A stretch of DNA of 64,000 bases. Origin: Ignavibacteriales bacterium. Its GTDB lineage: Bacteria; Bacteroidota; Ignavibacteria; Ignavibacteriales; Ignavibacteriaceae. The stretch is from the NCBI GenBank assembly GCA_015709675.1, contig CP054182.1, positions 3,327,448-3,391,447 on the forward strand, written 5' to 3'. This document shows, one piece after another, positions 59,500 through 60,187 of the stretch. Positions within the stretch are counted from its first letter, which is position 1; every line of letters starts with the position of its first letter. A program made the translations under genes and the position numbers. The notes under the pieces were generated by a model, which made no database searches, was not told where the DNA came from, and was given only the letters and a program-made list of their open reading frames with translations.

Positions 59500-59748
59500 A
59501 TGAACACTCTTAAAGCACGGATCGAAAACCCGCTTTCTGATTTGATAAGCGATGATATCTATGAACTGCTGAATTCCCATCAGCTTATTGATGAAAAAGC
59601 CGTCAGAGATTATCACATCAGAAAAAAATTCAGACAAATGCGGCACGAAAAAGTCAGCGCAGGTGATGCTATTGACAACATCAGAGAACAGTATCCTTAC
59701 CTGCAGTTTGATACTATCAGAAAAATTGTTTATCAAATAAATAAATAA
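59500..59748 (+). CDS. Small hypothetical protein (82 residues)
   Basis: MNTLKARIENPLSDLISDD... 82 residues, strongly charged, probably all helical, no signal or membrane segment. Blocks YELLNSHQLIDEKAVRDY, HIRKKFRQMRHEKVSAGDA and YPYLQFDTIRKIVYQ read like a helix-turn-helix-type small regulator, but I do not recognise the family. The start at 59500 is chosen because AAGAAGG ends 9 bases upstream; the ATG at 59491 abuts that site. Confidence 0.7.
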   Translation: MNTLKARIENPLSDLISDDIYELLNSHQLIDEKAVRDYHIRKKFRQMRHEKVSAGDAIDNIREQYPYLQFDTIRKIVYQINK

Positions 59749-59761
59749 TTTTAAATAGTGC

Positions 59762-59792
59762 TTGACAGAACATCAAAAATTTTCTAATTTTG
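59762..59792 (+). promoter_or_regulatory. Bacteroidota-type promoter
   Basis: TTGACA (59762-59767), 17 bases, TAATTTTG (59785-59792). This is an exact match to TTG and TAnnTTTG with ideal spacing. Transcription would start at about 59798, at the beginning of the structured region that follows. Confidence 0.75.
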
Positions 59793-59797
59793 TGATG

Positions 59798-59882
59798 TCT
59801 TGTCTGTAGGTTTCTCCCCTGGCCTACGGACCTTAGTAAGAGACAGCCCAGTGTATCCCCCAGCGCTGGGCTTTATTATTTT
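59798..59882 (+). ncRNA. Candidate structured small RNA or leader/attenuator with two C-rich loops
   Basis: Hairpin 1: GTCTGTAGG (59802-59810) with CCTACGGAC (59823-59831), nine pairs including one U-G, loop TTTCTCCCCTGG. Hairpin 2: AGCCCAGTG (59845-59853) with CGCTGGGCT (59864-59872), loop TATCCCCCAG, followed by TTTATTATTTT, an intrinsic terminator. An alternative pairing TGTCT (59801-59805) with AGACA (59841-59845) exists. The promoter at 59762, two hairpins and a terminator make a transcript of about 85 bases. It ends about two bases before the GGAG ribosome-binding site of the DUF3098 gene, so an attenuator is equally possible. I do not recognise it as a named RNA family. Confidence 0.6.
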
Positions 59883-59893
59883 ATGGAGCAAGA

Positions 59894-60187
59894 ATGGCAA
59901 AAACAAAAAAAAGTACTTCAGTTAAATCAGCTAAGCGCGTTATTCAGTCACCGTTCAGTATTTACTGGACAAAAACGAATTATATATTCTTCAGCGCTGC
60001 AGTCCTCCTGATAATCATTGGTTTTTATGTAATGTCCATTGGTCCTTGGGATAATGTGACCGGACTGGTTTACGCTCCGATTATATTATTTGTTGCATAT
60101 ATCATTTTGCTTCCGCTTTCAATTCTCTACCGTGACAGGAATTCTGCTAAAGCAGACGAGTCAAAAATTGATACTGGCAAAAGTTAA
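59894..60187 (+). CDS. DUF3098 small membrane protein
   Basis: 97 residues: basic, lysine-rich N-terminus (AKTKKSTSVKSAKRV), then two membrane helices (about 31-50 IFFSAAVLLIIIGFYVMSIG and 62-82 GLVYAPIILFVAYIILLPL). The IGPWDN loop between them is typical of DUF3098, a Bacteroidota-associated family without known function, often near cell-division genes such as ftsX. GGAG lies 5 bases before the ATG. It overlaps the EutN-like gene by 20 bases. Confidence 0.85.
   Translation: MAKTKKSTSVKSAKRVIQSPFSIYWTKTNYIFFSAAVLLIIIGFYVMSIGPWDNVTGLVYAPIILFVAYIILLPLSILYRDRNSAKADESKIDTGKS

Follow-up and report, generated by a model that had tools for sequence, protein, structure and literature searches.

The window, a 64,000-nucleotide stretch of contig CP054182.1 from an Ignavibacteriales bacterium, carries a short intergenic region between the gene for a conserved 82-amino acid protein and a gene for a small DUF3098-like membrane protein. 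The features recognized in and around this region are listed below.

59500-59748, + strand: gene for the 82-amino acid protein, found by neighbourhood comparison directly 5′ of the RNA order-wide
59762-59767, + strand: -33 promoter element TTGACA, read from the sequence; family members carry the strict TTGAC form at equal distance
59785-59792, + strand: -7 promoter element TAATTTTG, Bacteroidota type TAnnTTTG, read from the sequence; TTG-N18-22-TAnnWT is common in members
59795-59880, + strand: small RNA, as the extent of the covariance-model match (own-genome matches, fold z -5.8)
59797-59801, + strand: 5′ strand of stem P1, GUCUU, partner 59840-59844; double changes in 5 of 5 pairs and 93.8% of cells paired (A3 alignment)
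59802-59831, + strand: hairpin P2, with loop 1 (UCUCCCCU) at 59813-59820; double changes in 11 of 11 pairs, 97.3% paired; loop CCCC at about 2 bits per position
59832-59839, + strand: linker or bulge CUUAGUAA, 8 nt, unpaired in the fold, on the 3′ side of P1-P2; variable class-wide
59840-59844, + strand: 3′ strand of P1, GAGAC, from fold and covariation
59845-59872, + strand: terminator hairpin P3, with loop 2 (AUCCCCCA) at 59855-59862; double changes in 10 of 10 pairs, 98.5% paired; also found by terminator scan
59873-59882, + strand: terminator T-tract, interrupted by A in the window's DUF3098-linked copy (sequence, terminator scan)
59885-59888, + strand: Shine-Dalgarno sequence GGAG of the DUF3098 gene; the 16S 3′ end contains CACCTCCTTT
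59894-60187, + strand: gene for the DUF3098-like small membrane protein, ATG at 59894; directly 3′ of linked copies class-wide

The promoter, with 17 nt between TTGACA and TAATTTTG, and the two hairpins with C-rich loops lie where a preliminary description of this DNA had placed them. In the minimum-energy fold, nucleotides 59802-59812 pair with 59821-59831 to form P2, and 59845-59854 pair with 59863-59872 to form P3, whose T-rich tail was picked up by the terminator scan, in agreement with its earlier designation as a terminator. Loop 1 is C-rich, as had been proposed, but shorter than described, at only 8 nt, since the two U residues at 59811-59812 are base-paired with GG. The RNA from 59795 to 59880, whose 5′ end probably lies at about 59796-59798, folds at -37.5 kcal/mol compared with -20.6 kcal/mol for dinucleotide shuffles (z = -5.8).

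A potential pairing between TGTCT and AGACA had been taken as an alternative structure, indicative of a switch or attenuator. This pairing is instead a third stem, P1, which encloses the first hairpin and covaries alongside P2 and P3, and all three stems are present together in one minimum-energy fold. Because P1 coexists with the other two stems, no switch is suggested, and one based on this pairing was rejected.

The assignment of the downstream gene to DUF3098 proved right though weak in the window protein itself, whose match (E 0.0012) falls under the Pfam cut-off; a relative's protein at the same locus reaches it. The 82-amino acid protein on the other side has 25 invariant residues in 24 sequences and a predicted structure of four helices (pLDDT 87). 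Pfam and NCBIfam gave no match to its sequence, and no significant PDB match to the predicted fold was found.

Four clear copies of the RNA occur in its own genome: that in the window, two in tandem, at 3781351 and 3781556, and a fourth on the opposite strand at 182072. These stand in different gene contexts, and all four are equipped with a TTGACA-like -33 box and a TAnnTTTG-like -7 box of their own and with a terminal U-tract. The folds of the three paralogues are also more stable than shuffled sequences (z = -6.0, -6.5 and -4.1), and the copies differ from one another in paired fashion, with UGUAGG/CCUACG against UUUAGG/CCUAAG and CCCAG/CUGGG against CCCGG/CCGGG. A fifth sequence (G000:C1:2071437, 40 bits) was rejected as a clear member, its loops being without a C-run and no promoter being seen. 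At locus L002 (1292-1582), the tandem pair (c3/c2) lies 179 bases 5′ of a gene for a protein that by eye resembles GTP-dependent phosphoenolpyruvate carboxykinase, and the sister species is arranged alike.

The RNA is a member of an uncatalogued family of about 85 bases found across the class Ignavibacteria. A covariance model built on the four own-genome copies (R1) matched 148 of 295 relatives from the same family, order and class, with up to 7 copies per genome. A genome of the same genus (G001) and Ignavibacteriaceae bacterium SJ115 share one three-copy array at identical positions, and the matches from a pattern scan of named genomes lay mostly in metagenome-assembled genomes labelled Ignavibacteria, Ignavibacteriae or Ignavibacteriales, some being labelled only Bacteroidetes. 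When a second model (R2), built on 77 members, was run against 395 genomes of the phylum, strong matches were restricted to the class; outside it no match was convincing, the best having E = 5.8e-6 and the rest mostly about 1e-3, a level that is unreliable for this model, whose calibration was shortened. Matches outside the class, and those in metagenome-assembled genomes labelled Rhodospirillaceae (L107) and Marinimicrobia (L103), were set aside as chance or terminator-like, with weak scores and no promoter, and the family was not matched in the viral contigs searched. In genome G099 (L188, 581-874), a unit of about 110 bases that ends in a terminator-like hairpin occurs three times in tandem in near-identical form; it is unrelated to the family and was excluded from it.

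Support for the structure comes from 77 aligned members comprising 73 distinct sequences, in which standard pairs occupy 97.1% of 1866 cells and double compensatory changes occur in 26 of 26 base pairs. The covariation score is 0.659, compared with 0.237 for shuffled alignments and 0.04-0.13 with slid partners (maximum 0.126), and 0 of 500 shuffles reach the observed measures. Fitting the alignment to the structure biases the covariation counts; the effect size and the initial comparison of four copies are independent of that bias. A plain intrinsic terminator belonging to the upstream gene, accompanied by a chance hairpin, would account for the presence of a terminator 3′ of the 82-amino acid gene, but not for the paralogues, the class-wide covariation in all three stems, or the conserved promoter and loops, and it is already refuted by the covariation. 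Compensatory stem changes and retained UCCCC loops, the features sought among homologues, are both found. The earlier proposal of an undescribed small RNA is strongly upheld: the RNA has paralogues and a class-wide family, all of its stem pairs covary, the UCCCC loops are conserved along with the promoter and the terminator, and no Rfam family matches it.

The promoter is shared by most of the family. Of 111 members, 95 have a TTG-N18-22-TAnnWT element adjoining the RNA start, where shuffles give 8.4, and 84 have the strict TTGAC form with equal spacing (0.4 expected); among the members compared, no conservation was found in the remaining upstream 50 bases. Members in family f3 lack this promoter element and lie about 3-35 bases 3′ of the 82-amino acid gene. 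At two further loci, L202 (1041-1198) and L238 (1020-1178), a copy devoid of its own promoter directly follows a tRNA-Met(CAT) gene, a layout that looks as if the RNA were released as a tRNA trailer. These copies, in f3 and at both tRNA loci, may be processed from longer transcripts.

Conservation is concentrated in the loops. Loop 1 is nearly invariant, and its CCCC and the C-run of loop 2 are the best conserved bases of all. The CCCC and, in loop 2, the central C reach 1.9-2.0 bits per column, while many columns of the hypervariable stems carry 0.2-1.0 bits; the conserved cores are UCUCCCC in loop 1 and usually at least four C residues in loop 2. As a model-based collection favours loop-bearing members, this conservation is partly one of ascertainment, though exceptions in family f2 show that loop loss is still detectable. 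In the linked copies of f2, loop 1 no longer has its C core, but both the promoter and a run of at least five C residues in loop 2 are kept. In genus g35 of the same family, four stand-alone copies (three in G086 and one in G104; L229, L230, L231 and L243) carry a GCAA tetraloop where loop 1 would be and retain a six-C run in loop 2 on the terminator hairpin. Conversely, a few stand-alone copies in family f1 keep loop 1 and have a degenerate loop 2. Because the f2 and g35 copies keep just loop 2 and some f1 copies just loop 1, a single C-rich loop is apparently enough, much as the UCCC sites of LhrC are redundant (PMC4132741). A division of labour in which loop 1 is the trans-acting and loop 2 the cis-acting part was dropped, given that the stand-alone g35 copies retain only loop 2.

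The position of the RNA relative to DUF3098 bears on whether it functions as a separate molecule. In 90 of 112 distinct members the next gene downstream is one for DUF3098, 21 are without it, and one contig ends; the linked share of about 80% refers to the sampled members, a non-random set in which the best matches were fetched first. The four g35 copies bring the unlinked total to 25. Linkage on this scale would be needless for a purely trans-acting RNA. It would be expected of a 5′ leader that acts in cis on DUF3098-EutN-dprA, with P3 gating transcription and the C-rich loops sensing a ligand, protein or RNA on which read-through depends, the more so as the upstream gene changes between families, from the 82-amino acid protein in the window's order to what is often, judged by eye from the sequence, an ABC-transporter ATPase. 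In the window, moreover, another promoter would not fit between the terminator and the DUF3098 start codon. We nevertheless consider such a leader unlikely. All 25 unlinked copies retain the structure plus at least one C-rich loop. Even when the 21 copies without DUF3098 are taken alone, 95.6% of cells are paired, double changes occur in 23 of 26 pairs (0 of 500 shuffles reach this), and loop 1 is kept in 20. Tandem arrays of two or three full promoter-terminator units would hardly be sensible for attenuation, and the mutually exclusive antiterminator and terminator pairings that define an attenuator or riboswitch are not seen: no antiterminator pairing was found, and P1, P2 and P3, all covarying, form together. 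Since the unlinked copies keep the structure and a C-rich loop, the RNA appears to work apart from DUF3098, and these conserved copies are the main evidence, drawn from sequence comparison, that it acts independently of that gene.

Linked and unlinked copies also differ in their terminators. Uninterrupted T runs average 5.3 in linked and 6.8 in unlinked copies (Mann-Whitney p = 2e-6, uncorrected for kinship), a difference that favours some action in cis. In the own genome, in G001 and among the three copies arrayed in G036, the copy with the interrupted T-tract is the linked or DUF3098-proximal one, although such within-genome comparisons are few and include ties. At locus L013 (1340-1743), three complete tandem copies precede DUF3098, and the U-tract is interrupted only in the proximal one. 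The shorter runs would fit leaky termination feeding the DUF3098-EutN-dprA operon, and a role of the terminator in cis on DUF3098 is possible, because the linkage is class-wide and the U-tracts of linked copies are weaker. One tentative extension is that a single promoter has two outputs, a trans-acting C-loop small RNA and, through a deliberately leaky terminator, the DUF3098-EutN-dprA operon, with the ancestral locus kept class-wide and the dispersed or tandem full-terminator copies raising the dose of the small RNA alone. Were this so, a class without Hfq would own a global silencer of ribosome-binding sites.

The interpretation that we favour, with a probability of roughly two in three, is that this locus is an independent gene of about 85 nt for a trans-acting, Hfq-independent small RNA that represses mRNAs through C-rich pairing loops. 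Several features that characterize trans-acting small RNAs are present, namely an own promoter, an intrinsic terminator, a conserved structure and copies independent of one mRNA. From the family, structure, promoter, terminator, loop conservation and copies apart from DUF3098 observed here, we infer that the RNA is transcribed, that it acts in trans by base-pairing, and that the outcome is repression. A sigma-A-type promoter would start the RNA at about 59797, and the P3 hairpin with its U-tract would end it just 5′ of the DUF3098 ribosome-binding site. The product is predicted to consist of the P1-P2 stem with its 8-nt side bulge, followed by P3, and to display C-rich loops on P2 and P3. These conserved loops would then pair with G-rich mRNA stretches at or near ribosome-binding sites and repress without Hfq, which is absent from the own genome and gave no match above cut-off among the 59 genomes searched. 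Pairing with specific mRNAs is suggested by this anatomy and by analogy with known small RNAs of the same design.

The search for targets is less favourable to mRNA pairing. The anti-Shine-Dalgarno sequence of the 16S rRNA is normal (CACCTCCTTT), and the genome's ribosome-binding sites are of the AGGAG/GGAGA type. Within loop 1, UUCUCC is complementary to GGAGAA, which is 6-fold enriched at ribosome-binding sites simply as part of the Shine-Dalgarno sequence; enrichment of GGGG or GGGA at these sites was not found, and complementarity of the whole loops to 903 start regions did not rise above that of shuffled loops. The two best candidate targets are xerC and batA, and the sister species lacks the extended match in xerC. 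These results, together with an f2 loop 1 that lacks the C core even as loop 2 keeps it, count against the proposed repressor.

An RNA that instead sequesters or guides an RNA-binding protein through its two C-rich loops, with copy number setting the dose, would need no mRNA targets. CsrB-type RNAs bind protein in this manner through GGA loops. The repeated loop motif on hypervariable stems, the several copies per genome, and the failure to find either Hfq or target enrichment are all in keeping with this idea. We regard it as rather improbable, however, as there is no candidate protein, the one or two loops per RNA fall below the usual number for a sponge, and the C-rich loop is an mRNA-pairing motif in comparable known small RNAs (PMC4132741, PMC7143759).

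Neither Rfam nor the open-licence literature searched yielded a small RNA family of Ignavibacteria, and in Rfam 15 no family reached its gathering score with the window RNA or 12 other loci. The best weak match is alpha-r14 (RF02344), at 25.7 bits for the window and 28.4 bits for L037 against a cut-off of 58.8, and in the window copy this match takes promoter sequence as the first hairpin. The alpha-r14 or cuckoo RNAs, such as NfeR1, have hypervariable stems, unpaired loops with anti-Shine-Dalgarno motifs, multiple copies and a conserved sigma-70 promoter (PMC7143759). The Ignavibacteria RNA resembles them in its variable stems with constant C-rich loops, its several copies per genome and its conserved promoter; alpha-r14, however, has three hairpins with CUCCUCC-type loops and belongs to Alphaproteobacteria, whereas the RNA described here has two loops, UCUCCCCU and AUCCCCCA.

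LhrC of Listeria is likewise multicopy, with two hairpins, UCCC in both loop A and the terminator loop, and no need of Hfq (PMC4132741). The Ignavibacteria RNA shares the multiple copies and the UCCC motifs in its first and terminator loops. LhrC differs in its unrelated phylum, its length of 111-114 nt and its third, single-stranded UCCC site, and the Ignavibacteria RNA in its P1 stem with a side bulge, its almost invariant UCUCCCC loop and its lack of a match to Rfam families. RsaE and other UCCC-loop small RNAs of Firmicutes act on ribosome-binding sites through a C-rich loop motif (PMC4132741); the motif is shared, but no relation in sequence or structure was found. The 6C RNA has been reported to bind mRNAs via C-rich loops without chaperones (as cited in PMC9569102). 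It too has C-rich loops and extra copies in some genomes, but is confined to Actinobacteria, a different distribution, and the Ignavibacteria RNA gave no match in Rfam. CcsR1-4 of Rhodobacter are related small RNAs encoded behind a small protein gene (PMC8625941), an arrangement also seen here; they are processed from the 3′ UTR of ccaF1, which encodes an RNA-binding protein, whereas most of the Ignavibacteria RNAs come with a promoter of their own, and the 82-amino acid protein showed no relation to CcaF1.

By analogy, the RNA most likely works like LhrC, alpha-r14 and 6C RNA, though by the comparisons made here it is a member of none. A strongly covarying, multicopy RNA present class-wide offers a concrete entry point to post-transcriptional control in a group that is known largely through metagenomes, and it would represent a further case, of apparently independent origin, of the C-loop design used by Firmicutes, Alphaproteobacteria and Actinobacteria.
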